A program made the position numbers and the translations under genes. 43,094 nucleotides of DNA from Comamonadaceae bacterium (GTDB lineage: Bacteria; Pseudomonadota; Gammaproteobacteria; Burkholderiales; Burkholderiaceae_C). This document shows, one piece after another, positions 10,470 through 30,003 of this stretch. The notes below the pieces were generated by a model, which worked only from the letters and a program-made list of their open reading frames with translations, was not told the origin of the DNA and ran no database searches. How positions within the stretch are numbered: position 1 is the stretch's first letter; each line of letters starts with the position of its first letter. Location: contig CANFVA010000006.1 in NCBI GenBank assembly GCA_947450255.1, positions 1-43,094 on the forward strand, written 5' to 3'.

Positions 10470-10567
10470 AGGCCTGCACCTGGCCCCAGCTGTGCGCTCG
10501 GGCTCTCGCAATAAGCCGAGCATTGCGCGGTGACGCTGCCCTAAGTACCTGAAAGATTCAGTGAATA

Positions 10568-10621
10568 CTTAACCGAAGTCTAAAAATAAATGAATTTACT
10601 TTACTTATCAAGACTTTTACA
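10568..10621 (+). promoter_or_regulatory. cbbL operon promoter, probable CbbR target
   Basis: Near copy of 9124-9177. It carries the TAAAT-GA-ATTTA dyad (10587-10598) and a candidate sigma-70 promoter TTTACT (10595-10600), 17 bases, TACATT (10618-10623). A transcript starting near 10630 leaves a ~34-base leader with AGGAGA at 10653-10658 before cbbL. The rest of the 194-base gap after the aminotransferase gene shows no gene. Confidence 0.72.
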
Positions 10622-10663
10622 TTCCTTTCCAGACTACCCGAAACCTTCACCCAGGAGACTTAG

Positions 10664-12133
<1,470 letters not shown>

Positions 12134-12162
12134 AACGAATACGCTGCAAGGAGAAACCCACC

Positions 12163-12603: not shown

Positions 12604-12637
12604 GCCAGGCAAGTCGGTACCCACGCACCTAGCCACC

Positions 12638-13603: not shown

Positions 13604-13619
13604 AACCCTGGAAACACAC

Positions 13620-14339: not shown

Positions 14340-14366
14340 GATTTTTTGTTTCAACGAGATTGCCCC

Positions 14367-15458
14367 ATGCCTTTGTCCGCCCGCTCCCAGCATTCCACCC
14401 TGACGCAGTTCTTGATCGAGGAGCGCCGCAAGTACCCAGGCGCCAGCGGCGATTTCAACGCCTTGATTTTGGACATCGCGCTGGCTTGCAAAGCGATCGC
14501 GCGCGGCGTCGCGTTTGGAGAGTTGGGCCAGGTGCTGGGCGACCATAAAAACGGCGACGGCGCATCGGTCAATGTGCAGGGCGAAGCGCAAAAAACCCTG
14601 GACGTGCTGAGCAACCAAGCCTTTATCCGCCGCACCGAATGGGCCGGTAATCTGGCGGGCATGGCCTCGGAGGAAATGGAGCACCCTTACCAAATACCGG
14701 CACAGTTTCCGCGCGGCAAGTACTTGCTGGTGTTCGACCCCCTGGATGGCTCGAGCAACATCGATGTCAACGTCTCGGTAGGCAGCATTTTTTCGGTGCT
14801 GCGTGGGCCGGACAACCGGCGCGATGTACAAGAGACTGACTTTTTACAGCCCGGTACCAAACAAGTGGCAGCTGGCTATGCGATTTACGGGCCAACCACC
14901 ATGCTGATGCTGACTCTGGGCAACGGGGTGCAGGGCTTTACCCTGGACCCCAACCTGGGTGAGTTCATGCTGACACACCGCAACATCCAGATTCCCGCGG
15001 ATACGCATGAGTTTGCGATTAACGCATCCAATAGCCGATTCTGGGAAGCACCGGTCAAGCGCTATGTGGATGAATGCCTGGCCGGGAGAACCGGGCCGCG
15101 TGGCAAAGATTTCAATATGCGCTGGATCGCCAGCATGGTGGCCGAAGCGCACCGCATCCTGATGCGCGGCGGCGTGTTCATGTACCCGCGCGACACCAAA
15201 GACCCCAGCAAAGCCGGGCGCCTGCGCTTGCTCTACGAAGCCAACCCGGTCGGCATGATCATGGAACAAGCCGGCGGTCGTGCCAGCACCGGCGAGCGTC
15301 CGGTCCTGGATGTGAGGCCCAGCGCATTGCACCAACGCATTGGCCTGGTCTTTGGTTCGCGCAACGAGGTCGAACGGATCGAGCGCTACCACCATGAACC
15401 GGCACCCACCGAGGAACACAATCCCCTGTTTGCCGAGCGCAGTTTGTTCAGATTTTGA
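14367..15458 (+). CDS. cbbF: Fructose-1,6-bisphosphatase class I
   Basis: Calvin cycle phosphatase (fructose-1,6-bisphosphate to fructose-6-phosphate; may also use sedoheptulose-1,7-bisphosphate). 363 residues. Metal-binding SEEME (101-105) and DPLDGSSN (124-131), then [13 protein letters not shown] and the substrate-site [22 protein letters not shown] at 14367; the TTG at 14346 would add seven unconserved residues. Spacing to cbbY is 27 bases. Confidence 0.96.
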
Positions 15459-15483
15459 AATTTTTTGAGTCCAGGAAGCTCCC

Positions 15484-16359
15484 ATGTCAGAGAAACACCC
15501 CATCATCGCCATCACCGGCTCCAGTGGCGCCGGGACCACCTCGGTGACGCGCACCTTTGAAAATATTTTCCGCCGCGAGGGCGTGAAGGCGGCAATCATC
15601 GAAGGCGATAGCTTTCACCGCTACGACCGCGCTGAGATGAAGCTGCGCCTGGCCGAGGCGGAAGCCAAAGGCAATAAAAACTTCAGCCATTTCGGACCAG
15701 AAAATAATTTGTTCTCTGACCTAGAGGCCTTGTTTGCCGATTACGCCAGGACCGGTACCGGCAAGCAGCGAAAATACTTGCACGACCACGAAGAGGCGGC
15801 GCCGTTCAAGCAAGAACCCGGCACTTTCACGCCCTGGCAAGACGTGCCCGCAGGCACCGATTTGCTTTTTTACGAAGGCCTGCACGGAGCCGTAGTCACC
15901 CCGGAAGTGAACATTGCCAAGCACCCGGATTTGCTCATCGGCGTGGTGCCGGTGATCAACCTGGAGTGGATACAAAAGCTCTGGCGCGATAAGTCCAAGC
16001 GCGGCTACAGCACCGAGGCCGTCACCGACACCATCTTGCGCCGCATGCCCGACTATGTGAACTATATCTGCCCCCAATTCGTACACACCCACGTCAACTT
16101 CCAGCGCGTGCCCATGGTCGATACCAGCAACCCGTTTATCAGCCGCGACATTCCCTCGCCCGATGAAAGCATGGTGGTGATCCGTTTCGCCAAGCCCAAA
16201 GGCATCGATTTTCAATACCTGCGCAGCATGATAGACGGCAGCTATATGAGCCGCGCCAACACCATCGTCGTGCCGGGTGGAAAAATGGAGTTGGCGATGC
16301 AGCTCATCTTCACGCCCTTTATCTGGCGCATGATGGAACGCAAAAAGCGCGCAGCATGA
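15484..16359 (+). CDS. cbbP: Phosphoribulokinase
   Basis: Makes ribulose-1,5-bisphosphate from ribulose-5-phosphate and ATP, the second Calvin-specific step. 291 residues, normal for the bacterial class. Nucleotide-binding ITGSSGAGTTSV (10-21), substrate-binding EGDSFHRYDR near 39-48 and LFYEGLHGAVV with the catalytic acid region. AGGA lies upstream of the ATG at 15484. The stop overlaps cbbZ by four bases. Confidence 0.97.
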   Translation: MSEKHPIIAITGSSGAGTTSVTRTFENIFRREGVKAAIIEGDSFHRYDRAEMKLRLAEAEAKGNKNFSHFGPENNLFSDLEALFADYARTGTGKQRKYLHDHEEAAPFKQEPGTFTPWQDVPAGTDLLFYEGLHGAVVTPEVNIAKHPDLLIGVVPVINLEWIQKLWRDKSKRGYSTEAVTDTILRRMPDYVNYICPQFVHTHVNFQRVPMVDTSNPFISRDIPSPDESMVVIRFAKPKGIDFQYLRSMIDGSYMSRANTIVVPGGKMELAMQLIFTPFIWRMMERKKRAA

Positions 16360-17033
16360 AGCGCTATGAACTCATTTTGTTCGACCTGGACGGCACCCTG
16401 GTCGAGACTGCGCCAGAAATTTGTGACGCCGTCAACGATACTTTGCAGCACTTTGGCTTTGCCAGCGTTACACAAGGCCAGGTTAACGACTGGATCGGCC
16501 ACGGCACCTTGGAGCTGCTGATTCAAGCCCTGGCGTTCGTCCAAGGGCAAGACGATAAAACAATGCGCGCGTCTGCGCGTTTACCTGAGATTGCCGCTGT
16601 ATTTAAAACCCATTACCGCACCCGCTGTGGCACACGCAGCCGGCCATACCCGCATGTCATGGAGACCTTGCACCAACTCCAGGCGAACGGCATTCGCCTG
16701 GGCGTAGTCACCAACAAAGAGGGCGCCTACACCCAAACTGTTCTGGATGCACATGCATTGACGGCCTTATTCGATTGTGTCATCAGCGGCGACACCCTGC
16801 CCACCAAGAAACCCCGGCCCGAGGTTGTGTTGCACTGTTTAGCGCATTTCCAGATCGGGAAAGACAAAACGCTGTTCGTGGGCGATTCCAGTATTGATGT
16901 GGCCACCGCACGTAATGCGGGTATCGACGTATGGGCGGTGCCCTATGGTTACAACATGGGCGCAACCATCGCTGATAGCTTGCCCGATCGGGTCATCGCA
17001 GATTTCCGCCCCTTGGTAGAAAGCAGTGGCTGA
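16356..17033 (+). CDS. cbbZ: Phosphoglycolate phosphatase
   Basis: HAD phosphatase that removes 2-phosphoglycolate, the product of Rubisco oxygenation. 225 residues, with FDLDGTLVET (nucleophile Asp10, Asp12), VVTNKEGAYT, the lysine in PTKKPRPEVV and FVGDSSIDVATARNAG. The start overlaps the cbbP stop (ATGA). Last gene of the cbb operon. With the aminotransferase upstream of cbbL it gives the first and a later step of photorespiratory salvage; glycolate oxidase is not in the window. Confidence 0.94.
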   Translation: MKRYELILFDLDGTLVETAPEICDAVNDTLQHFGFASVTQGQVNDWIGHGTLELLIQALAFVQGQDDKTMRASARLPEIAAVFKTHYRTRCGTRSRPYPHVMETLHQLQANGIRLGVVTNKEGAYTQTVLDAHALTALFDCVISGDTLPTKKPRPEVVLHCLAHFQIGKDKTLFVGDSSIDVATARNAGIDVWAVPYGYNMGATIADSLPDRVIADFRPLVESSG

Positions 17034-17039
17034 GCACTT

Positions 17040-17477
17040 CTAAGCCAACTGCAATTCAGATAAGCGCTTGGCCACTTGCCGCTTGCCCATGGTGCGTAGC
17101 TTCGCAATCGCGACCAATTGGGTGGCACGCGGCCGGGATTTGGCTTGTTCCCACTTATAGACGGACTGGTCACTAACACCCAACAGAGCGGCAGCCTGTG
17201 CCGCCGTCAAGCCCAGCCGTTTACGCATATTCGAAAATCGTGCAGCACTAAAACGTAAGGCGGTAACGCTGTCCTTGGCTTGGGGCGCAAATACTTTGCG
17301 CTGGGCGCTGGCTTGCGGTCCCAGCAATTGCTCCAAGGTGGCGACCCGCGATTTCAGTTCTGTGGCTTCTCGCTTTTGCTGCAAAACTGATTTTTTGATG
17401 CGCAAGAGCTGTTCGCGTACCTGCTTGTTAGAAATCCGGATGATTTCACTCTTGAACTGCTTGACCCATACCGACAT
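17040..17477 (-). CDS. Small protein with coiled coil and C-terminal Xre-type HTH
   Basis: 145 residues. Residues ~15-55 are heptad-like and charged (LLRIKKSVLQQKREATELKSR), a likely coiled coil. Residues ~82-130 form a helix-turn-helix of the Cro/Xre type: MRKRLGLTAAQAAALLGVSD then QSVYKWEQAKSRP. Probable DNA-binding regulator; target unknown. It faces cbbZ tail to tail with only six bases between the stops and no clear terminator, so the two transcripts probably overlap. A perfect palindrome lies 50 bases upstream of its start. Confidence 0.8.
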   Translation of the reverse strand: MSVWVKQFKSEIIRISNKQVREQLLRIKKSVLQQKREATELKSRVATLEQLLGPQASAQRKVFAPQAKDSVTALRFSAARFSNMRKRLGLTAAQAAALLGVSDQSVYKWEQAKSRPRATQLVAIAKLRTMGKRQVAKRLSELQLA

Positions 17478-17526
17478 TTCGCCTCCATATATTTAATAAA
17501 AACGCAATCAAACGTATTTTGATAAT

Positions 17527-17543
17527 AAACGACTCAGTCGTTT
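17527..17543. promoter_or_regulatory. Perfect palindrome upstream of HTH gene, possible operator
   Basis: AAACGACT-C-AGTCGTTT is an 8-1-8 perfect inverted repeat in AT-rich sequence, 50 bases upstream of the HTH gene start. The single-base centre fits a protein operator better than an RNA hairpin. The rest of the 375-base gap 17478-17852 shows no convincing gene: 17545-17740 is GC-rich without coding signs, and 17760-17830 is AT-rich, probably the promoter of the next gene. Confidence 0.4.
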
Positions 17544-17852
17544 TCGGCTAGCGAGTGCATGGCCTGCGCGTCCCCGCAATGCATAGCTTGGGTTTGCAAG
17601 CTCGCGCGCAGCATTCGCAGCGCCGCCGCACCCTTTGCCCGCGGCAGGCGCTGCAAATCTTGGCTACCGCCACCCTTCACTGCGCGCTAGGCCACTCGCA
17701 CTGCCAGAGGTTCCTTCTTCGACGCCTGGTGGTTTCGAGAGAATTTCAGATAGGTAGAAAATGCTTGTTTTTATAAAAATACTAATAATTTATTTAATTT
17801 ATGTATGATTCTAAAAAAACATCCACTTTCGCGAAGGTATTGAGGAGGCGCC

Positions 17853-18173
17853 ATGTCGGTATTCACCAAGACTACAAAGGGGCTTGCTGCGTTAAAGGAC
17901 CTGCACTCCGGCATGCCTCGGCGCATGCGTACCGTGCTGTGGTGCATCAATGGCCAGACCTCGACGGCGACCTTGATGCGCAGCCTGACCTCCGTGGGCG
18001 ATGTCAAAGAACTGATGCGTTACTTAATTGCAGAAGGCTTGATCGAACGGGTACCCAAAAACACCGCAGGTCCTGCGGTTGCGAGGTCGGACCTCAGCCG
18101 CGTCAGCGGCCCAGGCAGAACGGCAATTGCAGCCAGCCTTGCGACGCAGAATGGGGCCTTGCAAAGCAAATAA
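17853..18173 (+). CDS. Small winged-helix-like protein of unknown function
   Basis: I do not recognise the family with certainty. The 106-residue basic protein has a strong ribosome site (GAGGAGG, 17842-17848) before its ATG. Residues ~22-67 (MPRRMRTVLWCINGQTSTATLMRSL then VKELMRYLIAEGLIERV) read like a winged helix: helix, turn, helix, then a 'leaves-the-end' strand. The C-terminal third is Ala/Ser-rich. A DNA-binding or signalling role is possible; inference only. It ends 38 bases from the stop of the convergent DadA-like gene. Confidence 0.65.
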   Translation: MSVFTKTTKGLAALKDLHSGMPRRMRTVLWCINGQTSTATLMRSLTSVGDVKELMRYLIAEGLIERVPKNTAGPAVARSDLSRVSGPGRTAIAASLATQNGALQSK

Positions 18174-18211
18174 GCCGCCATCTGGTGACTGGCGCAGTGC
18201 CCGCAGATCTC

Positions 18212-19441
18212 TCAGAATCGTTGCGCGCGCAAGGCATTCAAGGGCAAGGCACTAGGGCGATCGCCGACCAGATCGGCGACTAATCGCCCACTCAAACCGC
18301 CCAAGGTCAGCCCGATATGCTGGTGCCCAAAGGCGTACACCACCCGCGCGCTGTCGCGCGAACGGCCTAGTACCGGTAGCCCATCGGGCAGCGTGGGCCT
18401 GAAACCCAACCACGGCGCCTGCGGCGCACCCAAAGCAGGCAAAGCGCGGTGCGACGCAAAGTTCAGTAATTCCAGCAAACCGGGATGCATGTCCGGCCCC
18501 AAACCCGCCAATTCCACCGTGCCCGCCACCCGTAAGCCTTGCGCCATCGGCGTCATGTAAAAGCCGCGCTCGGCCCAACCTACCGGGCGCGAAATCAAGG
18601 ATGTACTGCCGGGAAACATCAGGTGGTAACCGCGCTCTGCCTGCAGCGGCACGTCATCGCCGCATTGCGCCGCCAAGGTCTTGGAATGCACACCGGCGCA
18701 TAGGGCCAAGTGATCGTAAACGCTGTCATGCTCAGGTCCCAGCAGCCGCACTTCCTGCGCATCCGCCTGCACCCTGGTAACCGCCAGCGGATGAAGCGCG
18801 AGGCCTTTGCGCTGCAAATACGCCAGCAAAGCATGCAAAAACGCCGCCGGGTCGCTCAGGTGCCAAGAGCCTTTGAACAAGGCGCCACGATGGAAAATCG
18901 GGCTCAGTTGCGGCTCGAGAGAAGCAATGGCGTCGGCGTCCAAAATATCGCTTGCGATACCCAGGTGGCGGCGCAATTGCAGGGTGTCGCGTGCGCCTTC
19001 AAAAGCGGCGGCACTCGAATACAAGTACAGGCATTCCTGCGGCCGGACAAAGTGCTGTAAATCCGCCTCGGCCAACAGCGCGTCGTAGCCGCTTTGGGCG
19101 TGGGCCAGCAACTGCGAAAGAGCGGTGGCAGTAGCCGTGTAGCGATCGGGTGTAGAGGCCCATAAAAACCGCACTAGCCAAGGTGCCAGCATAGGCAAGT
19201 GTGGCCAGCGCACCCGCAAGGGACTTTGCGCTGAAAACAAATAGCGCGGCAAGTCGCGAAACACAGACGGGTTATTGACTGGGATACAGGCGTAGTTGGC
19301 AAAGGTGCCTGCATTGCCAAAAGAGGCGCCACCGGCGGCACCATGCGGTTCGAATAAGTGCACTTGGTGACCATCGCGCATCAGCCAATAAGCCGCAGAC
19401 AAGCCAACAAAACCCGCACCGATGACCGCAACCCGCGCCAT
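18212..19441 (-). CDS. DadA-like FAD-dependent D-amino acid dehydrogenase
   Basis: FAD oxidoreductase of the DAO family, 409 residues. It opens with the dinucleotide motif VAVIGAGFVGLSAAYWLMRDGHQVHLFE and GGASFGNAGTFA, typical of DadA, and closes with GFRPTLPDGLPVLGRS and FGHQHIGLTLGGLSGRLVADL. The expected reaction is oxidative deamination of D-amino acids, passing electrons to the respiratory chain. Substrate unproven; related enzymes act on glycine, sarcosine or hydroxyproline. It follows the Mpo1-like gene by 81 bases in the same direction and may be the last gene of the leftward locus or independent. Confidence 0.82.
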   Translation of the reverse strand: MARVAVIGAGFVGLSAAYWLMRDGHQVHLFEPHGAAGGASFGNAGTFANYACIPVNNPSVFRDLPRYLFSAQSPLRVRWPHLPMLAPWLVRFLWASTPDRYTATATALSQLLAHAQSGYDALLAEADLQHFVRPQECLYLYSSAAAFEGARDTLQLRRHLGIASDILDADAIASLEPQLSPIFHRGALFKGSWHLSDPAAFLHALLAYLQRKGLALHPLAVTRVQADAQEVRLLGPEHDSVYDHLALCAGVHSKTLAAQCGDDVPLQAERGYHLMFPGSTSLISRPVGWAERGFYMTPMAQGLRVAGTVELAGLGPDMHPGLLELLNFASHRALPALGAPQAPWLGFRPTLPDGLPVLGRSRDSARVVYAFGHQHIGLTLGGLSGRLVADLVGDRPSALPLNALRAQRF

Positions 19442-19522
19442 CAGCGCAAGCCTGTGACGGCTTTAGCCATCGCACTGCGCGGCCAGGTCCACAGGGTCTG
19501 CGCCAAGCTTGTCACACGCAAT

Positions 19523-19999
19523 TTACCAGCGCACACCCAGGCGCTCGAAGGCCTTGCTCAGCACAAACAAGGGCCCGACCAGCAGGTATTGCACATCCTC
19601 GAAAAAGGAAGGTTTTTTGCCCTCCAAGTGGTGACCGATGAATTGGAATACCCAAGCCACCACGAAAATACCGACACTGGCCGGCACCAGCACACCGGCG
19701 GCGGCCATCGCATCAACCAAGGCCAGCATCACCGAGGACAATACCAACATGCACAGCGTGAAAGGCCAGGACAGCCGGGCGTAATACACCATACTGCCTG
19801 CGATGAGCGCCAGCGCCAGCGCCGGGTGCAGGGCAAACAACAAACCATTGAGGCTGAGCATGATGGCCGGTATGGCAACCAAGTGAATCACTTCATTGAC
19901 CGGATGCGTGTGGCTCAGGCCATATCGTTGCAAGAGCACATCGACTTTGCGCTCGGGCGTGTCCAGGCTCTCTGGCAGCGGTGTTTGCATCGAATCCAT
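19523..19999 (-). CDS. Mpo1-like (DUF962) membrane protein
   Basis: 158 residues. N-terminal ERKVDVLLQRYGLSHTHPVNEVIHL with conserved histidines, four hydrophobic helices, and the C-terminal family motif FIGHHLEGKKPSFFEDVQYLLVGPLF. The family includes yeast Mpo1, an Fe(II) dioxygenase of 2-hydroxy fatty acid alpha-oxidation; bacterial members are mostly uncharacterised. The ATG at 19999 has CAGGAGA upstream; the longer open frame to 20221 overlaps the preceding gene and is unlikely. 29 bases after the flavoprotein gene. Confidence 0.85.
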   Translation of the reverse strand: MDSMQTPLPESLDTPERKVDVLLQRYGLSHTHPVNEVIHLVAIPAIMLSLNGLLFALHPALALALIAGSMVYYARLSWPFTLCMLVLSSVMLALVDAMAAAGVLVPASVGIFVVAWVFQFIGHHLEGKKPSFFEDVQYLLVGPLFVLSKAFERLGVRW

Positions 20000-20028
20000 G
20001 GCTTGTCTCCTGGTATGAAAAGCACGAA

Positions 20029-21150
20029 CTAAGACTGCAGAAATTGCTTGAGCCATGCGACGGCGCGCCCCTGCATGGATTGCCCGCCCCAGGCCACCAG
20101 CGCATGGCGCGAGCCGGCATATAAAAACCGCAAGGTAGGGGGTTTGGCGGCGTGCAGTTTGCCAGGCTCGGACTGCATCGTGGCTTGCACATTGGCGGCC
20201 AGCACCTCGCTGTCCTGCCACACATGAAACACTTCCGGGTGGCTGCTGCTGCGCTCGAATGCATCGGCGACCATCGCCTCGCCCTGCACCGCCAGGCCGC
20301 TGGGGCTGAGCCAGGCCGGCGGCGTACGGGCCAAGACCAGAATCGGCACATCACAGGCAAGGCGTGCACCACTGGCCAACACAACGTCATCGCGGGTCAG
20401 GGCAGCCACGGTTTCGTACAACACGGTAACGCGCTGCTCGCGCAGCAATTGCAGCATGCGCTGGCGCAAGGTTTCTGGGTCGTCCGCAGCGCCGGCCTGC
20501 TGGGGGCCGATGATCCATGTCACCGAGGCCGTGGGCATGCGCTGGCGCACGGCCAGAGCCAGTTCAAAGCCTTCGGTGCCAGCGCCGATGACTGCCATGC
20601 GCAGCGCGCGGCTGCGGCCCAAACCGCAGACTTTGGGCCACAAAGTGGCAAAGCCTTCAAGCGGCGGCACAAACAAACCATGCTCGCGGGCACCAGGCAT
20701 GGCAACCTCGATCGCTTCGCGGTGGGGTACCGGGCCGGTGTTGATGGACAGTACGTCATAGCGCAGCGTCTGCCCGTCATCGAGCAAGATGCTGCGCGAT
20801 ACTGCATTGAGTCCACGGCCTTGGCGTCCTGTCCACAGCACTTTGTCTTGCTGCAACAGCGGCTCGAGATCCACCATGCAGTCGGCCAAGGGCAAGTCGT
20901 TGGCCACATAGCGCGCCAGCTTGCGTGGTGCAAACGCCTGGCTTTGCGAGGTCAACACGGTAATCCGGACATGCGCCAGGGGGTGGCGTTTGAAATGCTC
21001 CAGCAAGCGAATATGGGCCGGACCCATACCCCACAAAACCAAATGTTCGGGCCGTCGGTAGGGTCTGGCGGCCACTTGGGCGCCCAGGGCTATGGCGTCT
21101 TCACCCGTGACCACAGAGTCTGCGCGGGGTGTCGGTGATACGTCCGTCAT
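20029..21150 (-). CDS. FAD-dependent oxidoreductase, paralogue of the NADH-dehydrogenase half of the adjacent SelD fusion
   Basis: 373 residues. It follows the same plan as residues ~10-400 of the next gene's product: LVLWGMGPAHIRLLEHF against LVLVGGGHSHVAVLKAF; YDVLSINTGPVPH against YDVLGINTGSTPQ; MAVIGAGTEGFELALAVRQRM against IAVVGAGAGGVELLLAMQYRL. The first glycine-rich loop has lost the usual GxGxxG (GMGPAHIR), so cofactor binding may be changed. It begins four bases after the selD stop, so translation is probably coupled. A partner or decoy of the larger flavoprotein is possible. Function unknown. Confidence 0.8.
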   Translation of the reverse strand: MTDVSPTPRADSVVTGEDAIALGAQVAARPYRRPEHLVLWGMGPAHIRLLEHFKRHPLAHVRITVLTSQSQAFAPRKLARYVANDLPLADCMVDLEPLLQQDKVLWTGRQGRGLNAVSRSILLDDGQTLRYDVLSINTGPVPHREAIEVAMPGAREHGLFVPPLEGFATLWPKVCGLGRSRALRMAVIGAGTEGFELALAVRQRMPTASVTWIIGPQQAGAADDPETLRQRMLQLLREQRVTVLYETVAALTRDDVVLASGARLACDVPILVLARTPPAWLSPSGLAVQGEAMVADAFERSSSHPEVFHVWQDSEVLAANVQATMQSEPGKLHAAKPPTLRFLYAGSRHALVAWGGQSMQGRAVAWLKQFLQS

Positions 21151-21154
21151 ACCC

Positions 21155-23656
21155 CTATTGTTCCACGAGCCTGATGGGCGCCCGGAAATCAGCCACTTCG
21201 CACACGCGACCGATCAGCGCGCACTGCGTGTAGCCCTGCGCCCGCAAGGCCCGCAAACAAGGCTGCGCCTGCTCCCAAGGCACACAGGCCAGCAAACCGC
21301 CGGCGGTTTGCGGATCAAACAGCATCTCGCGGCGTAACTGCTGTTCCCAGTCTTGGGGCCGTGGCGCGTGTTCGGCCTGGGGCGTCGCTTGGCCCCCCGC
21401 AATCGCTACGCCTTGCTGCGCATTGCTGCTATGCAAGGAGCTAAAAATACCGGCCTGCATAGACGCTAATGCGCCATCGAGCAGCGGCAATGCCACCAAG
21501 TCCAATTGGGCACCGAGCCGCTGGGTTTGCAGCATTTCCACCAAATGCCCCAGCAGCCCAAAGCCGGTGACATCGGTACACGCCCGTGCACCGTGCTGCA
21601 TCACGGTGCGGGAAGCGTCCTGGCTGGACTGGGCCATGCTCTCCAGCGCCGCCTCCACCCAGCGACCACGCGCCCGGCCCAGGGAATGCGCGGCAAACAA
21701 GGTGCCGGTGCCCAAGGGCTTGGTCAAAATCAAGGCATCACCCGCGTGCGCGCCGGCTTTGCGCAGTAACTGCACGGGCTGGCCCTGCGCGTCCACATCC
21801 ACCCAACCGTTAATGGCAAAGCCCAGCGACAACTCCGGCCCTTCACCGCTGTGGCCGCCCACCAGCGCGCAGCCTGCGGTGTTGAGCACGTGCACCGCGC
21901 CGGCCATCAGCTGCGATAAAACGCCCTGGGTTTGCCGATCCAGCCCGGGCGGCACCACAGCAATCGCCGTAGCGGTATGCGGCCTAGCGCCCATGGCAAA
22001 AATATCGCCTAGCGCATGGTTGGCGGCTATCTGGCCAAACCGATACGGGTCGTCGATGAAGGCGCGGAAAAAATCTACGGTTTGCACTTGCGCTTTGCCT
22101 GCGGGAATGCGCACCAAGGCGGCATCATCGGGCGCGGACAGGCCGATCAGTACGTCGGGGCTATCGCGCATTTGCAAGGCGCCCAGGGCCCGGCCCAAAA
22201 CGCCAGCGCCCACTTTGGCGGCGCAGCCACCGCAGCGCATGGCCTGGGCCGCTTGCGCTTGGGCGCGCTCTTGGGCGTCTAGGTTGGCAAAGTGAGCCAG
22301 CGCTTGCGCGCCGGCGTCTCGCGCCAAGGGCGCCATCGCGGGGACGCCCAAATCAGAGAAACGCTGCATAAAACGGCGGTCGATGTGGTCTTTCCAGCGC
22401 CACACCCAGCTCCCCGCAAAACCGAGCAGGCCGCGCGAGGCGACGGCATAACGATCGCCGGTACTGATCAGTGCCAGCCAGTGTTGTTGCGGGCGGTAGG
22501 CCTGCAAGGCTTGGCCGCACACAGCCCGGCGCAGATTGCGCGCCAGCGGCATACCCATGCGCACGGCAAACACACCGGCCTTTTCCAAAGCGCGCGGGCC
22601 GAAAGCGGCGACATCGCCGCTGGCAAAAATACGTGCGTCGGTGTCGGACTGCAAGTAGGCGTTCACACGCACACAGCCGTCAGCATCGAGTGCCAATCCG
22701 GTGGACGCCAGCCAACTGCCTCCTGCCGCTTGCGTGACCCAGAAAACGGTGTCGGTCTCTACGTTATCCAGTGCATTTGCGCCGCTCAAAGTTGGGGTGG
22801 CACCAGGTTTGGCAATTGCAGTTGGGCTTGCGCGTGCGTCTACGCTTGCGCTGGCAGGTGTATTGGCCTGGGTGCCTTCAACCTGCAGCGCCACAGGGGC
22901 ACCAGGGTCAGCATCTACGGAGCGCAGCACCTGCACCCCGTTGGCGCTGACCGCCTGTACCCGCGCGCCTAAATGCACTTGCACGCCGCGCGCTTGCAAG
23001 ACCTGCATAAAACGGGCACGCACGCGGGCGTTATGGATGGGCAAGATGGATGGCGAAGCAGAAAGCAATATAAATTGCGGCGTTTGCAGCCCTAGCGCTT
23101 TGCATTCCTTGCGCAAGCGGTACTGCATCGCCAGCAGCAACTCCACCCCGCCAGCGCCCGCGCCCACTACCGCAATGCGGCGCGGCCCCTGCCCAGCGCG
23201 CACCTTGTCGAGCAATTGCAGCCAGCGGGCGTGAAACGCGGCGATGGGTTTGACTGCAATGGCATGGTCGATGGCGCCCGGCACCTGGGCTGCCTGCGGC
23301 GTCGAGCCGGTGTTGATCCCCAGTACATCGTAATCCAGCGGCGGACGCCCCTGCAGCAGCACTTGGCGCGCCGCACGGTCAATACCCGTCACTTGCGCGC
23401 GCACAAAACGCGCACCCGCAAAAACGCACAGGCGCACCAAGTCGAGATGGACGTCGTCATAGTCGTAATGCCCCGCCACATAGCCGGGCAACATGCCTGA
23501 ATACGGCGTGTGCGCGTCGGTGCACACCAATGTGATGCGCAAACCCGCCAAGGGCTGCATGCCAAAGGCTTTTAACACTGCCACATGGCTGTGGCCGCCG
23601 CCGACCAGCACCAGGTCGCGCACTATGGGGCCGGAGTTTGCTTGCATTGCCGCCAA
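21155..23656 (-). CDS. selD: NADH dehydrogenase-like / selenophosphate synthase fusion
   Basis: SelD makes selenophosphate from selenide and ATP, the Se donor for selenocysteine and 2-selenouridine tRNA. The ~833-residue protein has an N-terminal NDH-2-like flavoprotein domain (~12-430; LVLVGGGHSHV, VVGAGAGGVE, ASGDVAAFG) and a C-terminal SelD domain (~470-833). RCGGCAAKVG at 474-483 puts Cys478 and Lys481 at the positions of E. coli Cys17 and Lys20, so it is the cysteine form, not selenocysteine. Other SelD motifs: DFFRAFIDDPYRFGQIAANHALGDIFAMGA and GGHSGEGPELSLG. A ~55-residue Ala/Pro/Thr-rich insert lies near 250-300. AGGAGG is 8 bases before a TTG at 23656 and 17 before the ATG at 23647, so I take the TTG. 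Confidence 0.93.
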   Translation of the reverse strand: MAAMQANSGPIVRDLVLVGGGHSHVAVLKAFGMQPLAGLRITLVCTDAHTPYSGMLPGYVAGHYDYDDVHLDLVRLCVFAGARFVRAQVTGIDRAARQVLLQGRPPLDYDVLGINTGSTPQAAQVPGAIDHAIAVKPIAAFHARWLQLLDKVRAGQGPRRIAVVGAGAGGVELLLAMQYRLRKECKALGLQTPQFILLSASPSILPIHNARVRARFMQVLQARGVQVHLGARVQAVSANGVQVLRSVDADPGAPVALQVEGTQANTPASASVDARASPTAIAKPGATPTLSGANALDNVETDTVFWVTQAAGGSWLASTGLALDADGCVRVNAYLQSDTDARIFASGDVAAFGPRALEKAGVFAVRMGMPLARNLRRAVCGQALQAYRPQQHWLALISTGDRYAVASRGLLGFAGSWVWRWKDHIDRRFMQRFSDLGVPAMAPLARDAGAQALAHFANLDAQERAQAQAAQAMRCGGCAAKVGAGVLGRALGALQMRDSPDVLIGLSAPDDAALVRIPAGKAQVQTVDFFRAFIDDPYRFGQIAANHALGDIFAMGARPHTATAIAVVPPGLDRQTQGVLSQLMAGAVHVLNTAGCALVGGHSGEGPELSLGFAINGWVDVDAQGQPVQLLRKAGAHAGDALILTKPLGTGTLFAAHSLGRARGRWVEAALESMAQSSQDASRTVMQHGARACTDVTGFGLLGHLVEMLQTQRLGAQLDLVALPLLDGALASMQAGIFSSLHSSNAQQGVAIAGGQATPQAEHAPRPQDWEQQLRREMLFDPQTAGGLLACVPWEQAQPCLRALRAQGYTQCALIGRVCEVADFRAPIRLVEQ

Positions 23657-23672
23657 TTGTGTCGCCTCCTGA

Positions 23673-25919
23673 CTAGCCGCGCCGCCAGCGGTGCCAGCGC
23701 GCCAACCAAGGCATGGCCGCTGCGGGCAAATGGGCGCGTTGCCATTGCCCGGCCACTTGCTTGGCCGACTCACTGAGCGTCGGATAGGTATGAATCGTGG
23801 CCAAAATCGCCTTCAAACCCAGACCCTGGCGCATCGCCAGCGCATAGGGCGCAAGCAACTCGGCCGCTTGCTCGCCCACGATAGACACGCCCAACAGGGT
23901 ATCGCGACCCGGGACGGTAAGGACTTTCACAAAGCCCGCCGGTACCGTGCCCAAGGCGGCATCGCAAACCGCCCGGTCCACCCCCGCCAGGTCGAAGCGG
24001 GTGACTTCGTAGGCCACACCGCGCGCCTGCGCTTGTTGTTCGTTGAGGCCCACGCGCGCCACTTGTGGAGCCACATAGACGGCCGTGGGCAATAGGCTGT
24101 AGTCAGGCCGCAAGGCGCCCCAACCGTCGAGCAAGGCATTGACCGCCGCATACCAGGCCTGGTGCGCGGCGGCATGGGTGAATTGGTAGGGGCCGACCAC
24201 ATCACCGGCCGCGTAAATCGAGGGGATCAGGGTTTGCAAATAGGCATCGGTGTGCAACAGCGTATCGCTGGCGATGCCCAAGTCTTGCAAGCCAAAACCA
24301 TGCAGCCGTGGCTTGCGGCCGGTGGCGCAGATGAGCAAATCGTAGGGCACGGCAAATTCGTCGTCTTGCGCCGCGGGTGAAGCAAGCCCAATGGACGAGC
24401 CGCTCTGGCGCGTGGAATTTTGACGCAGCACGATCAATTTGTCCGCACCCGCATGCTGCGGCAATGTTTCGCAGCGCAAGACTTGGTGCGCTGTGAATAC
24501 GCGCACACCATCGGCGCTTAGTGCGGCTTGCACCAGCGTGCTGACATCTGCATCTTCTTTAGACAGCAATACGGGCCCGCTTTCCACTACCGTCACCTGC
24601 GCACCCAGGCGCGCAAAAGCTTGTGCCAACTCGCAGCCCACCGGCCCGCCACCGACGATGGCAATGCGCTGTGGCAGCGCGCCCGCTTTCTCCAAAACAT
24701 CCCACAAGGTATCGCTGGTCACATAGCCGCTGTCTTGCAAGCCAGCGATCGCAGGCACCACGGGCTGGGAGCCGGTCGCCAAGATGATGTTGCGCGCGCT
24801 AATGCGCTCGGGCGCCTGGCCGCTGCGGCGCAACTCCACGGTCCAAGGGTCCACGAGGTAGGCATAGGCCTGCACTACATCGACACCCATCGCGCGGTAC
24901 CGCTCGGGACTGTCGTTGGGCGCGATGGCGGCGATGATGCTGCGCACCCGCTGTAGGACCACCGCGAAGTCCACCTGCACCGGCCCGGTCTGCACCCCAA
25001 AACCCTGGGCGTGCCGCGCTTGTTGCGCGACGCGCGCACTTTGAAGCAAGGCTTTGCTGGGTACGCAACCGCGGTTGAGGCAATCGCCGCCCATCTCGCC
25101 TGCCTCGACCAAGGCCACGCGCGCTTGCGCGTGCGCGGCTACATAGGCCGAGACCAAACCGCCGGCGCCGCCGCCGATGACGATCAGGTTGTAATCAAAG
25201 CGCGCAGGTCGCTTCCAGCGTGCGGCCACCGTGCGCCGACGCAGCCAGGCCCCTGTGCGCCGCGTCAGCCACGGCGTGGCGGCCAAGGCAAAGGCCAGCG
25301 CAAACAAGACCGCTGCAACTTGGGGTTGCAATACTTCAGACACCGAACGCAATGCGGCCAATTGGCTGCCCGCTTGCAAATAAATCAGGGTCGAGGGCAG
25401 CATGCCCAATTGGCTGAACAGATAAAAGCGCCAGGCCGGCATGCGCGTCAAGCCCATCAGCACATTGATCGCCCCGAACGGAACCAGTGGAATCAGACGC
25501 AAACTGAGCAAATAAAAAACACCTTCGCGCTCTAAGCCTTGCGTCATACGGGCCAGGCGCCGTGTCATACCCGCACCCCAATAGGCAGCCAAGTTATCGG
25601 CCAATACATGGCGCACCACCAGCAGGGTCAAGGTAGCGCCCAGGCTGGAGGCAAAGGACACCAACAACAATCCCCAGCCAAAACCCAGCACGGCGCCACC
25701 GGCCAAAGTCAGCACCACAATGCCCGGCACCGCAGCGCTGGCCAATACGATATACAAGCTAAAAAACGCAGCGCGCACTGTCCAGGGCGCGTGTATATAC
25801 CAAGCCTGCAAATCTTGGTACTGCGCTTGCAAATGCGCCAGACTGAACCAATCGGCACCTCGCGCCACGCCGACGAGGGCCAGCGCCAGCAAGGCCCACC
25901 ACGCCAAACGCCACAGCAT
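23673..25919 (-). CDS. TVP38/TMEM64 membrane domain fused to a mercuric reductase-like flavoprotein
   Basis: 748 residues. Residues ~1-225 are a TVP38/DedA-type membrane domain (AVPGIVVLTLAGGAVLGFGWG; GVFYLLSLRLIPLVPFGAINVLMGLT). Residues ~240-748 are a class I pyridine nucleotide-disulfide oxidoreductase: FAD loop VIGGGAGGLVSAY, redox pair Cys280/Cys285 in GGDCLNRGCVPSK, NAD loop IVGGGPVGCELAQAF and the C-terminal active-site HTYPTLSESAK. The extra metal cysteines of true MerA are absent. It could reduce a thiol, sulfur or selenium species at the membrane; inference. The ATG at 25919 is 8 bases past the ynjF-like stop; an in-frame GTG at 25934 is an alternative. Confidence 0.9.
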   Translation of the reverse strand: MLWRLAWWALLALALVGVARGADWFSLAHLQAQYQDLQAWYIHAPWTVRAAFFSLYIVLASAAVPGIVVLTLAGGAVLGFGWGLLLVSFASSLGATLTLLVVRHVLADNLAAYWGAGMTRRLARMTQGLEREGVFYLLSLRLIPLVPFGAINVLMGLTRMPAWRFYLFSQLGMLPSTLIYLQAGSQLAALRSVSEVLQPQVAAVLFALAFALAATPWLTRRTGAWLRRRTVAARWKRPARFDYNLIVIGGGAGGLVSAYVAAHAQARVALVEAGEMGGDCLNRGCVPSKALLQSARVAQQARHAQGFGVQTGPVQVDFAVVLQRVRSIIAAIAPNDSPERYRAMGVDVVQAYAYLVDPWTVELRRSGQAPERISARNIILATGSQPVVPAIAGLQDSGYVTSDTLWDVLEKAGALPQRIAIVGGGPVGCELAQAFARLGAQVTVVESGPVLLSKEDADVSTLVQAALSADGVRVFTAHQVLRCETLPQHAGADKLIVLRQNSTRQSGSSIGLASPAAQDDEFAVPYDLLICATGRKPRLHGFGLQDLGIASDTLLHTDAYLQTLIPSIYAAGDVVGPYQFTHAAAHQAWYAAVNALLDGWGALRPDYSLLPTAVYVAPQVARVGLNEQQAQARGVAYEVTRFDLAGVDRAVCDAALGTVPAGFVKVLTVPGRDTLLGVSIVGEQAAELLAPYALAMRQGLGLKAILATIHTYPTLSESAKQVAGQWQRAHLPAAAMPWLARWHRWRRG

Positions 25920-25926
25920 GCGCGCG

Positions 25927-26610
25927 TTAAACACCGGCGTCCTGCCCCATACCCGCTCTGGGCGGTTGATGGTTTGGTGCCGTCTGTCGGCTGGGCTTTG
26001 TATCACGAAGCAAGCGCATACCCGCAGCGATGCGGCCCAACCAAGTGACAAAGCACAGCCCGGCAAAGCCATATGCCAGCGGCGCGAAGTAGGCAGGCCA
26101 AATACACATAGCGCACAAGACCGCCAGCGTCTCGGTCGCTTCGGTCAAGCCGCCCACAAAGTAAAAAGATTTGTCCGGCATCTGCGGGTTATGCAGGCCG
26201 CGCTGCGCCGCCAACGTGGCAAAGGCCAAAAAACTGCTGCCAGTGCCGACAAAAGCGGTGATCAACACCGCTGCGGGCAATGCATTAGCCGCTGGGTCGG
26301 CCAGCGCAAAAGCCAGCACCATCAGCGCATAAAACACAAAGTCCAACGCAATATCTAAAAAGCCACCGACCGCTGAACGGCCTACGCCCATGCGGGCGAC
26401 TGCGCCGTCCAGCGCATCACACAGGCGGGACAGCCATAACAAGGCCAAGCCCGCCATCCACGCCTGCGCTGCTACACAAGCGGCAGCGAGCAGGCCCAAG
26501 GCAAACCCCGCCCAAGTAATGCTGTTGGCCGAGATACCGCCACGCAGCAGCGGACGCGCCAGGGCCTGCACAGCCGGGCGTATCAGGCGGGTGGTGTAGC
26601 GGTCCAACAT
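25927..26610 (-). CDS. CDP-alcohol phosphatidyltransferase, YnjF-like
   Basis: Membrane enzyme that moves a phosphatidyl group from a CDP-linked donor to an alcohol. 227 residues. The full family motif is present: DG-AV-AR-8-G-3-D-3-D, seen as DGAVARMGVGRSAVGGFLDI followed by ALD. Six hydrophobic helices; the C-terminal ~25 residues are polar. E. coli YnjF is the closest recognised relative, and the neighbouring ynjC/ynjD homologues strengthen this. The acceptor alcohol cannot be told from sequence. Confidence 0.85.
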   Translation of the reverse strand: MLDRYTTRLIRPAVQALARPLLRGGISANSITWAGFALGLLAAACVAAQAWMAGLALLWLSRLCDALDGAVARMGVGRSAVGGFLDIALDFVFYALMVLAFALADPAANALPAAVLITAFVGTGSSFLAFATLAAQRGLHNPQMPDKSFYFVGGLTEATETLAVLCAMCIWPAYFAPLAYGFAGLCFVTWLGRIAAGMRLLRDTKPSRQTAPNHQPPRAGMGQDAGV

Positions 26611-26650
26611 AGCGCCATTGTCGGTGCAAGTGATGACACGCTATGTCATC

Positions 26651-27370
26651 TCAGGGCGCGCTTAAGTGCGTGACACACAGTGCGTCCAAGATATCGGTCG
26701 GGTCATGTGTCACCACGATGGCCGCAATGCCGCGCCGTGCCACTGCAACACCAAGCAATGCGCGCATGCGCTGGCGCAGCGCCACATCAAGTTTTGCAAA
26801 AGGTTCATCGAGCACTAAGGCCTGCGGTTGCGACAGCAAAGCACGCGCCAAGGCCGCGCGGGCGCGTTGGCCACCCGACAGCGTGGCCGGATCGGCGTTT
26901 GCAAAACCGGCCAATTCCACTTCCTCCAAGGCCTGCGCCACCTGCGCCTCGCGCGCCGCTGGCGGCCCTGCGGCAATGGCGAACAAGAGGTTTTCCCGCA
27001 CCGTCATATGCGGGAACAACACATCGTCTTGGTACAACATAGCAATGCGCCGCGCACGCGTAGGCAAGTGGTCCACGCGCCGGCCCATGACATGTACCTC
27101 GCCCATAAATTGCAAGCCAGGGGCCAGCGTGCCGCACACCGCCGCCAGCAAGCTGGACTTGCCCGAACCGCTGGCCCCCATCAGCGTATGCACCGCGCCG
27201 CCGGGCACCGCGATGTCCAATCCTTGCACCAAGACAGCCCTGGGGCTGCGCAGGCTTCGCACCTGCACGTGCAGCGCGGGGGCAGCATCTTGCGGACGCG
27301 GTGTCGACACGGCGCCGGGTGCGTTCGGTGCGCGATGCAGTGCCGCTGGCGTAGGGGTTGGGCTGGGCAT
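26651..27370 (-). CDS. ynjD: ABC transporter ATP-binding protein, YnjD-like
   Basis: 239 residues. Walker A GASGSGKSS (65-73), Q-loop in IAMLYQDDVLFPHMTV (an LFPH pattern typical of YnjD), signature LSGGQRARAALARALL (164-179), Walker B ALVLDEPFAKLD and switch His in VVTHDPTD. The first ~30 residues are Pro/Ala-rich. The start at 27370 is 14 bases after the permease stop with GGATG between. Powers the double permease next to it. The substrate of YnjBCD systems is not established. Confidence 0.88.
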   Translation of the reverse strand: MPSPTPTPAALHRAPNAPGAVSTPRPQDAAPALHVQVRSLRSPRAVLVQGLDIAVPGGAVHTLMGASGSGKSSLLAAVCGTLAPGLQFMGEVHVMGRRVDHLPTRARRIAMLYQDDVLFPHMTVRENLLFAIAAGPPAAREAQVAQALEEVELAGFANADPATLSGGQRARAALARALLSQPQALVLDEPFAKLDVALRQRMRALLGVAVARRGIAAIVVTHDPTDILDALCVTHLSAP

Positions 27371-27384
27371 ACGGGGGCTGCATC

Positions 27385-29013
27385 CTAAGCCAGCGCGGGC
27401 CTGACAAACGGGGACATAAAACGCCGCGTGCGACCCAGCCACAGCGCCAGTGCGAACCAGCAAGCAGGCAAGAGCCATTGCAATAAGGCATAAGCGGCTA
27501 CCAGCGAACGCTGGCCGCCCGCAGACAGCGCCACCGCTTCGGTAGTCACCGTCGCAAAGCGCCCGCCGCCCACAAACAAGGTTGGCAAAAACTGCGCCAC
27601 GCTGACTGCAAAGCCCACTGCAAAAGCCGCTGCCAAGGGGGCACGCAACACAGGCCATTGCACCCGCCACAAATACGCCCAGTGTGAACGGCCCAGACTG
27701 GCCGCTACCTGCGCCCCACGCGGGTCCAGCGCCGCATACGGGCCTTGCAAACTCAGCAACACATAAGGCCAAACGCTCAGACTGTGCGCCAGCCAAAGGC
27801 CCCAAGCGCTGGCATCCCATCCCAGCGCGATGCAAAGACGCTGCAAGCCCATGGCCCAGAGCAAGGTTGGCACCGCCAGCGGCAGGTAAGACGCGCCAAA
27901 CAGCGCCGCATGCCAGCGCGCAGGCAAGCATTCCAGACAGGCCACCGCCAGCACCAAAGCACTAACGGCGCTGGCCAGGCCTAGCCACAAGGTGGTATAC
28001 AACACGCTGGTACTGCCCAGCACTTGTTGCCAGGCCTGCAAAGTCCAGGCCTGCGGCCACAACGCAGGAAAAGGCCAAGGCCCCGCCACACTGGCCCAAA
28101 GCAGTGCGGCGGCGACCCCTGCGTACGCGCCAGGCAGGGCTTGCAGCAGCAAGCGCCCGATGGCGGCCCTGATCGCGCCGCCTGGCCGGCCTTGGGGATG
28201 CACCAAGTGCTGGGGCCCGCGCGACCAGCGCCTGGGTGCCAGCCAACGCCGGTCGACGCGGTACAGCAGCCAGGCCAGCCCAGCGCCCAGCGCCGTGCAA
28301 AGCAACAGCACTGAAACAGCACGCAGTCCTTGCGCTCGGAGCGCCGGATCCGCATCCTGCAGCCATTGCCAAGCCAGCACCGCCAACGTAGGAGGTGCGC
28401 CCGGCCCGATGATCCAGGCCACGTCCACCACCGACAGGCTATAGGCCCACACCGCCACCAGCGGCCCGGCCAAGCGAGGTAGCAGCTGCGGCCAAACCAC
28501 GCGCCACCAGGCCGACTGCGCGCTATAGCCCAAAGTGGCCGCGACACGCATTTGCGCTTGCCAGGCCTGCGCCAGATCAGGCCGCTGCATCTGCGCCAGG
28601 GCGCCCCATAGCAAAAACGGAATTTCTTTGCACACCAGCACGAGCGTCAAGCCCAGGGCCCAGGGATCTTGCGTGCTTTGCCAGGGCGGCGGCGCGTCCA
28701 GCGTCCAGGGCATCCGCTCAGCCCAGGGTTGCAGCAAGGCAAATAAAAGCCGCACCAACGCGCCCGAGGGTGCCAGCAATAACGCCCAGCCCAAAGCAAA
28801 AGCCACATGGGGCAAGGCCAGCATGGCAGGCAAAAACGTAGCTGGCGCGGACGCGGTGCGCATTCCCAGACCCGTAGACAAAATGCAGGCGCTCGCCCCT
28901 AGAGCCAGCAGCGTAGCCGCGACGGCGCTGCCCAGCGACAAGGCCAGAGCCTGCGCCAACTGCGCATGCTGCGCATGGTGCGCGAGTGGGCCGCAGTCAG
29001 CGGCCAAAGCCAT
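27385..29013 (-). CDS. ynjC: ABC transporter double-length permease, YnjC-like
   Basis: 542 residues with two fused permease modules, about 12 hydrophobic helices in all. Each half has an ATPase-contact loop (first: MRVAATLGYSAQSAWWRVVW; second: AQVAASLGRSHWAYLWRVQW). The C-terminal part FLPTLFVGGGRFATVTTEAV then ALSAGGQRS is as I recall it for YnjC. The start is uncertain: ATG 29013 is used because it precedes the first module, but the frame is open to 29196, overlapping rlmJ on the other strand. No substrate-binding protein (ynjB) lies beside it; the upstream neighbour is the divergent rlmJ. Probable first gene of the leftward locus. Confidence 0.85.
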   Translation of the reverse strand: MALAADCGPLAHHAQHAQLAQALALSLGSAVAATLLALGASACILSTGLGMRTASAPATFLPAMLALPHVAFALGWALLLAPSGALVRLLFALLQPWAERMPWTLDAPPPWQSTQDPWALGLTLVLVCKEIPFLLWGALAQMQRPDLAQAWQAQMRVAATLGYSAQSAWWRVVWPQLLPRLAGPLVAVWAYSLSVVDVAWIIGPGAPPTLAVLAWQWLQDADPALRAQGLRAVSVLLLCTALGAGLAWLLYRVDRRWLAPRRWSRGPQHLVHPQGRPGGAIRAAIGRLLLQALPGAYAGVAAALLWASVAGPWPFPALWPQAWTLQAWQQVLGSTSVLYTTLWLGLASAVSALVLAVACLECLPARWHAALFGASYLPLAVPTLLWAMGLQRLCIALGWDASAWGLWLAHSLSVWPYVLLSLQGPYAALDPRGAQVAASLGRSHWAYLWRVQWPVLRAPLAAAFAVGFAVSVAQFLPTLFVGGGRFATVTTEAVALSAGGQRSLVAAYALLQWLLPACWFALALWLGRTRRFMSPFVRPALA

Positions 29014-29112
29014 CAGGGTTGAAACAAAGTCCACAAATACCGGTCGGATCGAAAACTGCGATTGTCCGTTCAAGACCCTGGGCTGGGGCAGGCGGCGGTT
29101 ACCATCGTCGCT

Positions 29113-30003
29113 ATGTTCAGTTATCGACACGCTTTTCACGCGGGCAACCACGCCGACGTGCTCAAACACCTGGTTTTGCTGGCGCTGCTCAAGCACATGA
29201 CGCTCAAGGAAACCCCGTTTACCGTGCTAGACACGCATGCCGGGGCTGGCCTGTACCGGCTGGACGGTGATTACGCCCAAACCAGTGCCGAGGCCAGCCA
29301 GGGCTTTCTCAAATTGGCGCAGACCAGCCCTGCGCAGCCTTGGGCACCGCTGGTACAGGACTATTTGGACATGGTGGCCGGCTTTAATGCGCCGGGCCAG
29401 TGGAAGATTTATCCGGGCTCGCCCTTTATTTGCCAGCAGCCGCTGCGCGGGCGCGACAAACTCAAACTGTTTGAGTTGCACCCCACCGACAGCAAGACCC
29501 TGAACGCCAATATCGCACAACTGGAGGCCGGGCGCCAAGTGGCGATTGCCCGCGAGGACGGATTTGAAGCGGTCAAAAAATACCTGCCACCGCCTTCGCG
29601 CCGCGCCCTGCTGCTGTGCGACCCCAGCTATGAAATCAAAAGCGACTATGGCCGCGTCGCCGCCATGGTGGCCGACGCGCTGACGCGCTTTGCCACGGGC
29701 AATTACATGGTCTGGTACCCCATCATCCCGCGCCCGGAGGCGCACGACCTGCCGCGCAAACTGCGTACGCTGGCCAACAAAGCGGGCAAGAGTTGGCTGG
29801 ACATTACGCTGACGGTGAAATCGAGCAAACTTTTGCAAGACGACGCCGGCGAAACCGTGCGCCCGGGCCTGCCCGCCAGCGGCGTGTTCCTGATCAACCC
29901 GCCCTTCACCCTCAAAGCGCAATTGGCGCTGGCGCTGCCGCAACTGGTGCAGACGCTCAAGCAAGACGGGCATGCGCGGCATACGCTGGAGTCGGGGGGC
30001 TGA
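29113..30003 (+). CDS. rlmJ: RlmJ, 23S rRNA (adenine-2030-N6) methyltransferase
   Basis: SAM-dependent N6-adenine methyltransferase of 23S rRNA. 296 residues, starting MFSYRHAFHAGNHADVLKHL, the family hallmark. LDTHAGAGLY gives the SAM site and LLLCDPSYEIKSDY the catalytic DPxY motif. The ATG at 29113 is chosen by this N-terminus; the open frame extends to 29062. Divergent from the ynjC-like gene across about 100 bases and convergent with metF. Confidence 0.95.
   Translation: MFSYRHAFHAGNHADVLKHLVLLALLKHMTLKETPFTVLDTHAGAGLYRLDGDYAQTSAEASQGFLKLAQTSPAQPWAPLVQDYLDMVAGFNAPGQWKIYPGSPFICQQPLRGRDKLKLFELHPTDSKTLNANIAQLEAGRQVAIAREDGFEAVKKYLPPPSRRALLLCDPSYEIKSDYGRVAAMVADALTRFATGNYMVWYPIIPRPEAHDLPRKLRTLANKAGKSWLDITLTVKSSKLLQDDAGETVRPGLPASGVFLINPPFTLKAQLALALPQLVQTLKQDGHARHTLESGG

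Follow-up and report, generated by a model that had tools for sequence, protein, structure and literature searches.

The commonest SelD fusion by far joins an NADH dehydrogenase to selenophosphate synthetase (PMC4561486), and the oxidoreductase part was proposed in 2008 to reduce a selenium compound for use by SelD (PMC2432076); what we cite here and below comes from the available excerpts of each paper. In E. coli, the map reads ydjXYZ-ynjABCDE, with ynjF on the opposite strand and selD about 6 kb past ynjF. The ydjXYZ-ynjABCD operon is a target of FNR, which binds and activates it (PMC3688515), while YnjBCD has been called uncharacterized (PMC9207381). Here, we describe a locus in which these two sets of genes meet: a stretch of 43,094 nucleotides (the window) from a Comamonadaceae bacterium (GCA_947450255.1, contig CANFVA010000006.1), where a fusion of an NADH-dehydrogenase-like flavoprotein (NDH) with SelD lies in an array of ynj genes. 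We read this array as a module for import and reduction at the membrane, which may be coupled to selenophosphate synthesis in this lineage, a reading to which we give a probability of roughly 0.38.

The fusion resembles the NADH oxidoreductase (COG1252)-SelD fusion of the earlier accounts (PMC2432076; PMC4561486) in domain order and in its Cys-type SelD, but the excerpts of those accounts place it in no YnjC/D/F or VTT-Lpd context, and here the fusion replaces an NDH belonging to the module. The E. coli region shares the transporter, VTT proteins and YnjF and has selD nearby, as the sequence-only reading of this DNA had correctly stated; it differs in having no Lpd fusion, no NDH and an unfused selD several genes off, as well as a rhodanese (YnjE) and an AhpD-like protein (YnjA). 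A COG0398 DedA protein fused to a pyridine nucleotide-disulfide oxidoreductase (PMC10127716) likewise combines VTT with PF07992 and PF02852; that paper ties it to aerobic metabolism, its excerpts holding no selenium or ynj context. The sequence-only reading knew of no description of the combined system, and the open-licence literature, in which we found no paper linking YnjC or YnjD with SelD, agrees, although parts of it have been published in the three papers on fusions cited above. What is new is that this flavoprotein family also belongs to the ynj module, where it is swapped for the fusion.

The array and its NDH-SelD fusion

The eight genes run on the minus strand from 29013 to 18212 in the order ynjC-ynjD-ynjF-(VTT/TVP38-Lpd)-(NDH-SelD)-NDH2-Mpo1-DAO:

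27385..29013, minus strand: ynjC, ATP-binding cassette (ABC) transporter permease (37% identity to E. coli YnjC along the alignment)
26651..27370, minus strand: ynjD, ABC transporter ATPase (ABC_tran, 106.6 bits)
25927..26610, minus strand: ynjF-like CDP-alcohol phosphatidyltransferase (PF01066, 34.2 bits, cut-off 22)
23673..25919, minus strand: VTT (TVP38/DedA) and lipoamide-dehydrogenase-like flavoprotein fusion, VTT-Lpd (PF09335, 73.6 bits; PF07992/PF02852)
21155..23656, minus strand: NDH-SelD fusion, start TTG 23656 or ATG 23647 (TIGR03169, TIGR00476)
20029..21150, minus strand: NDH2, a paralogue of the fusion's NDH domain that has lost motifs (TIGR03169, 132 vs 310 bits)
19523..19999, minus strand: Mpo1-like protein (PF06127, 51 bits, cut-off 24)
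18212..19441, minus strand: DadA-like FAD oxidoreductase, DAO (PF01266, 191 bits)

The open reading frames, the sequence and Pfam and NCBIfam matches confirm the genes, order and coordinates first read from the letters, and the gaps of 4-81 bases given then are borne out: 14 bases for ynjC/ynjD (if ynjD begins at ATG 27370), 40 for ynjD/ynjF, about 7 for ynjF/VTT-Lpd (ATG 25919), about 16-25 for VTT-Lpd/NDH-SelD depending on the start codon, 4 for NDH-SelD/NDH2, 29 for NDH2/Mpo1 and 81 for Mpo1/DAO. The order is not due to chance, since a second Comamonadaceae metagenome-assembled genome (MAG; locus L135) repeats all eight genes and the core of the array recurs in many genomes. A consensus promoter scan of 18000-29300 returned 0 matches (1.8 in shuffled sequence), a result that neither supports nor excludes a single transcript, and an Rfam scan of 17000-30000 gave no match.

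The SelD half of the fusion scores 285.5 bits against the selD equivalog model TIGR00476 (cut-off 125) and stays below the cut-off of NF002098 (206 vs 299). The protein also falls short of TIGR04369, which describes an oxidoreductase/SelD-related fusion that is not SelD (438.7 bits, cut-off 700). The active site, CGGCAAK, has both catalytic residues, Cys and Lys, and aligns with E. coli CGCK, where we take them to be C17 and K20; CGGCxAK is retained in the window and in 27/27 other aligned fusions. The N-terminal NDH half reaches 463 bits with TIGR03169 (cut-off 310), and among solved structures it is closest to 4nwz, presumably a type 2 NADH dehydrogenase, and to NADH dehydrogenase-like proteins, which rank above sulfide-quinone reductase.

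The genome itself encodes MnmH (G000:C43:5180-6094; 353 bits, cut-off 219.75) and so carries the 2-selenouridine trait (MnmH/SelU with SelD). SelA had no match in this genome (85.6% complete) or in the same-genus genome G125 (100%); SelB and tRNA-Sec were not searched for. Given MnmH and the lack of a SelA match, selenium most likely ends up in tRNA 2-selenouridine in this genome, and it is very likely that the fusion is an active SelD supplying MnmH. The sequence-only reading had suggested looking for a correlation with MnmH or SelA, and this check was borne out in the family. Among 150 genomes of the window's family, SelD is present in 135, MnmH in 133 and SelA in 38. The fusion occurs in 20 of them (19 with an open frame of at least 757 amino acids, plus G040, cut by a contig end), and all 20 have an MnmH match (E 1e-30; that of G009 is two pieces below the cut-off) and none has SelA.

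NDH as the link to selenium

We compared this family sample with 398 genomes of the phylum (about 540 genomes together; G numbers denote genomes, G000 being the window's own, L numbers named loci, and f18 and f55 families). The sampled genomes are related and no correction was made for descent, so that the p-values below overstate the evidence, which tells against our reading. YnjC is encoded in 29/150 family and 51/398 phylum genomes, and around it recur YnjB, YnjD, mostly YnjF and often VTT-Lpd: the 80 named YnjC loci, many of them cut short by contig ends and counted all the same, include YnjB in 69, YnjF in 55, VTT-Lpd in 39, NDH in 25 and SelD in 10.

Selenium tracks the NDH flavoprotein instead of YnjC. 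TIGR03169 (E 1e-50 or better) is found in 50 of the phylum genomes, 44 of which have SelD. When YnjC genomes of the phylum are split by NDH, SelD is present in 16/18 with it vs 6/33 without (p=1e-6), and the six SelD-bearing genomes of the latter group all belong to one family (f18), with selD on the same contig some 6-8 kb from ynjC, as in E. coli. Where a stand-alone NDH occurs without the fusion, 15 of 21 phylum genomes have SelD.

Within the window's family, YnjC accompanies NDH closely (28/47 genomes in which TIGR03169 reaches at least 250 bits vs 1/103 others, p=9e-17). Fifteen of the 29 YnjC genomes carry the fusion and none of these has an intact stand-alone NDH, which 13 of the other 14 possess (p=2e-7). 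No exclusion is seen in family genomes without YnjC, where a stand-alone NDH is present in 1/5 fusion genomes (G042) vs 14/116. Because fusion and intact stand-alone NDH exclude each other in YnjC genomes, NDH-SelD is taken to substitute for the module's own NDH in this family, as the data support, and it probably works as part of the ynj module.

The remaining NDH paralogue has decayed beside the fusion. In the window and in L135, NDH2 has changes at 21/54 conserved positions, with the FAxGD motif absent and nucleotide-binding motifs lost. Fusion-adjacent NDH2 proteins elsewhere show 15-16/55 changes (L034, L139, L143), or 6/34 with broken motifs in L140, where the sequence is cut by the locus end. 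Poor rows also come from genomes without the fusion (L071, 13/55; L134, 11/55), and the other 43 of 51 NDH rows, a set that includes some genomes represented twice and one cut fusion, have at most 6 changes. In a tree of these proteins (quick search, with support only from the Shimodaira-Hasegawa-like approximate likelihood ratio test, SH-aLRT), the five window-type NDH2 rows form one starred group and L034 a separate long branch; NDH2 decay thus reflects few events, not many. The tree separates fusion NDHs from module NDHs, so we rejected recent duplication of the NDH part of the fusion as the origin of NDH2. A row from L137 labelled as stand-alone groups with the fusions; it is an NDH-SelD truncated where its contig ends. 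The loss of NDH2 motifs, like the absence of ynjB from the window, goes beyond the sequence-only reading.

The association of NDH-SelD with the module, the replacement of NDH and the loss of NDH2 motifs therefore support a coupling of this module variant to selenium. The data likewise support the operon-like array, the intact SelD active site and MnmH as the sole selenium trait found. All of the evidence is comparative.

Physical linkage points the same way in some lineages. Of 15 assessable family genomes with YnjC, nine have SelD no more than 40 kb away from it (G000, G125, G047, G134, G114, G012, G064, G113, G124) and six do not (G082, G031, G017, G091, G058, G117); positions were read by hand, and 14 YnjC genomes were excluded as too fragmented or lacking SelD. 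At an assumed chance of 0.02 each, the probability of such linkage is 2e-12, a figure to be read with the relatedness of the genomes and our own choice of the 40-kb limit in mind. Several arrangements occur. The fusion sits between VTT-Lpd and NDH2 in L135, L139, L140 and L143; it is convergent to the module in L152 and L162, where NDH2 was not seen; and it lies beside TIGR04282/TIGR04283 transferases in L170 and L178, at a position taken in L209 and L212 by VTT-Lpd and a stand-alone NDH. In L141 and L144, an unfused SelD is convergent. Operon drift could have joined unrelated genes by accident, as the restriction of linkage to certain lineages would allow, but recurrence in several arrangements, the mutual exclusion of fusion and NDH, and NDH2 decay beside the fusion make such an accident very improbable. 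The neighbourhood search proposed earlier thus finds the combination recurrent in some lineages, with physical linkage confined to them.

Other genes of the array and its surroundings

YnjC scores below the Pfam permease cut-off (21.1 vs 26.4 bits), while its alignment to E. coli YnjC spans its length. The closest solved structures to the ynjF-like protein are weak matches of the inositol-phosphate type. VTT-Lpd retains the redox motif CLNRGCVPSK (CxxxxC) in its translation and stays below the cut-offs for mercuric reductase (MerA, 317.5 vs 454 bits) and for dihydrolipoyl dehydrogenase (lipoamide_DH, 346.6 vs 408.8 bits). MerA carries a Cys pair near its C-terminus, and the VTT-Lpd translation has no Cys close to that end. 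DAO scores under the D-amino acid dehydrogenase cut-off and is conserved in L135; we are unsure whether it belongs to the functional unit. An Mpo1-like gene lies immediately 3' of NDH-SelD on the same strand in three of 19 other family fusion loci (L032, L034, L040), hinting that the fusion has a partner in Mpo1.

Other ynj loci add further genes. The complete same-genus genome G125 encodes a VTT protein without Lpd (L121, 5027-7876) beside rhodanese and LPG_synthase_TM proteins, with SelD as a separate convergent gene. DUF3047 was identified in all four proteins tested (L144:10164-11090, L152:16493-17527, L166:8793-9629, L143:18230-19105), and members of this family turn up in about 18 ynj loci, often adjoining VTT-Lpd or NDH; the window's array has none. 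In L170 (13913-15761), a DUF2063 protein and an MbnB/TglH/ChrH-type modification enzyme of ribosomally synthesized and post-translationally modified peptides adjoin NDH-SelD.

A TIGR04283-type transferase is found near ynjC in 15 distinct genomes, six by BLAST clustering and nine by BLAST in named loci (after removal of the duplicate L142), four of the 15 being confirmed with the model itself; the loci include L209, L212, L186, L207, L150, L166, L170 and L178. SelD is present in 14 of the 15, the exception being L148, a draft MAG; only lineages outside the window's family weigh for a tie between transferase and SelD, since SelD is near universal within it. The names of TIGR04282 and TIGR04283 raised the reading that the module belongs to an arsenosugar or arsenolipid pathway, and both models score above cut-off in ynj loci, with a nucleoside hydrolase in L166. 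Against this, TIGR04167 (radical SAM ArsS) was found in 0 of 26 YnjC genomes tried, the window's own included, of which six have the transferases by BLAST clustering, and neither transferase lies near the window's array. The "arsenosugar biosynthesis" names thus cannot be taken literally, and we set this pathway aside as highly improbable. The same two families were formerly named "rSAM/selenodomain-associated".

Beside the array (window 580-16359), bchN, ppsR, bchG, bchP and genes for the RuBisCO large subunit and phosphoribulokinase score over NCBIfam cut-offs, so that the bacterium appears to be phototrophic and to have a Calvin cycle.

What the module may import and reduce

The window lacks ynjB. 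The genome's sole match (E 1e-15) is on another contig (G000:C41:7930-8961; PRK11622, 491 bits, cut-off 203) and completes a YnjBCD set with YnjC and YnjD of the window. It adjoins an open reading frame read as ftsY, and a cluster of FtsY-family proteins (one member identified) lies near ynjB in eight related loci; the window's array therefore seems to have departed from an older ynjB-ynjC pair.

According to the available parts of reviews from 2022 and 2026, a specific, high-affinity system for selenium transport has yet to be identified in any prokaryote. For E. coli, a 2009 paper refers to a dedicated route for selenite that is uncharacterised. In Cupriavidus metallidurans, a DedA protein is cited as a possible participant in selenite uptake (PMC2744661). 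YedE, a predicted selenium transporter (PMC5322559), is also a membrane protein given its role from gene context; it is unrelated to YnjC and is described as restricted to organisms that use selenium, whereas YnjC also occurs outside them. An ABC transporter-related ATPase near an orphan SelD (PMC5029168) offers the likeness of an ABC ATPase close to selD; it is named only by its Pfam family in the excerpts, and the window's SelD, unlike that one, is no orphan, MnmH being present.

In the proposed mechanism, YnjB, YnjC and YnjD would import a small selenium-bearing or sulfur-like compound, which the membrane-anchored VTT-Lpd flavoprotein and the NDH flavoprotein would reduce with NAD(P)H. Owing to the fusion of NDH to SelD, we propose that selenide would be handed directly to selenophosphate synthase, from which MnmH would draw for tRNA 2-selenouridine. 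What the cargo is, how electrons flow and what YnjF, Mpo1 and DAO do is inferred.

Several observations weigh against this reading. In the phylum, SelD is found in 129/398 genomes, 22/51 with YnjC and 107/347 without (p=0.11), which led us to reject YnjC as a marker of selenium use; the 29 of 51 YnjC genomes without SelD are the strongest result against the original inference as first written. The claim that the module joins selenophosphate synthesis thus survives as a repeated ynj-SelD linkage in some lineages (SelD in 10/80 loci; YnjC in 15/20 family NDH-SelD genomes vs 14/130 others) and fails for the transporter, which is not selenium-only. Twenty-seven further genomes reached through named loci, hand-picked for their neighbourhoods, have SelD in 22; two of the others (L201, L205) have NDH within the ynj locus, L148 has neither NDH nor SelD in a draft MAG, and L194 and L203 complete the list. 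NDH sits beside ynj genes without SelD in G483, and G532 has both the NDH and YnjC families and no SelD. In family f55, fusion and YnjC lie hundreds of kilobases apart where they share a contig (G246, G442, G468, G530). As for the cargo, a single-protein search of solved structures with YnjB gave no match, and its profile matches to iron and polyamine binders are weak, so that no ligand can be inferred. Finally, YnjF, VTT and Mpo1 point to lipids. A related YnjB (L141), modelled at a mean predicted local distance difference test (pLDDT) of 93.1, matches iron, polyamine, phosphonate and sugar phosphate binders alike. That selenium is the cargo of YnjBCD is accordingly a tentative idea, somewhat on the doubtful side.

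The occurrence of the module without SelD would also fit a general role in importing and reducing a sulfur compound, with selenium riding along or sharing enzymes in selenium users. Rhodanese neighbours (YnjE in E. coli, and in G125) agree with such a role, but NDH follows SelD and not YnjC as such, and we think it decidedly unlikely. Less so, though still unlikely, is a membrane lipid or quinone redox system, in which YnjBCD would import a headgroup or precursor, YnjF transfer it, VTT flip the lipid, and Lpd and the NDH-2-like flavoprotein handle electrons, SelD being tied in only through the usable NDH domain of the fusion. The presence of YnjF (55) and VTT-Lpd (39) among the 80 named loci fits this, as do neighbours such as APH kinase, glycosyltransferase, DUF547, fatty acid hydroxylase and LPG_synthase_TM proteins, the NADH dehydrogenase-like closest solved relatives of the NDH half, and the majority of YnjC genomes that lack SelD. 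It leaves unexplained why 16/18 NDH-bearing YnjC genomes have SelD and why stand-alone NDH is tied to SelD outside ynj genomes. We favour a selenium-coupled variant of a wider module: what was observed in the array is confirmed, and its interpretation partly supported.

At its boldest, and improbably, YnjBCD would be the dedicated importer of selenium so far missing in those Pseudomonadota that use it, VTT-Lpd and NDH-SelD would form a membrane relay reducing the cargo to selenide and passing it unreleased to selenophosphate synthase, and the FNR-activated ydjXYZ-ynjABCD operon beside selD in E. coli would be the same system rearranged. Short of that, the neighbourhood offers concrete candidates for bacterial selenium uptake, with counterparts in E. 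coli that make the route testable. Even if the cargo is not selenium, a flavoprotein swapped for a SelD fusion, with the old copy decayed, is a clue to the role of the NDH half.

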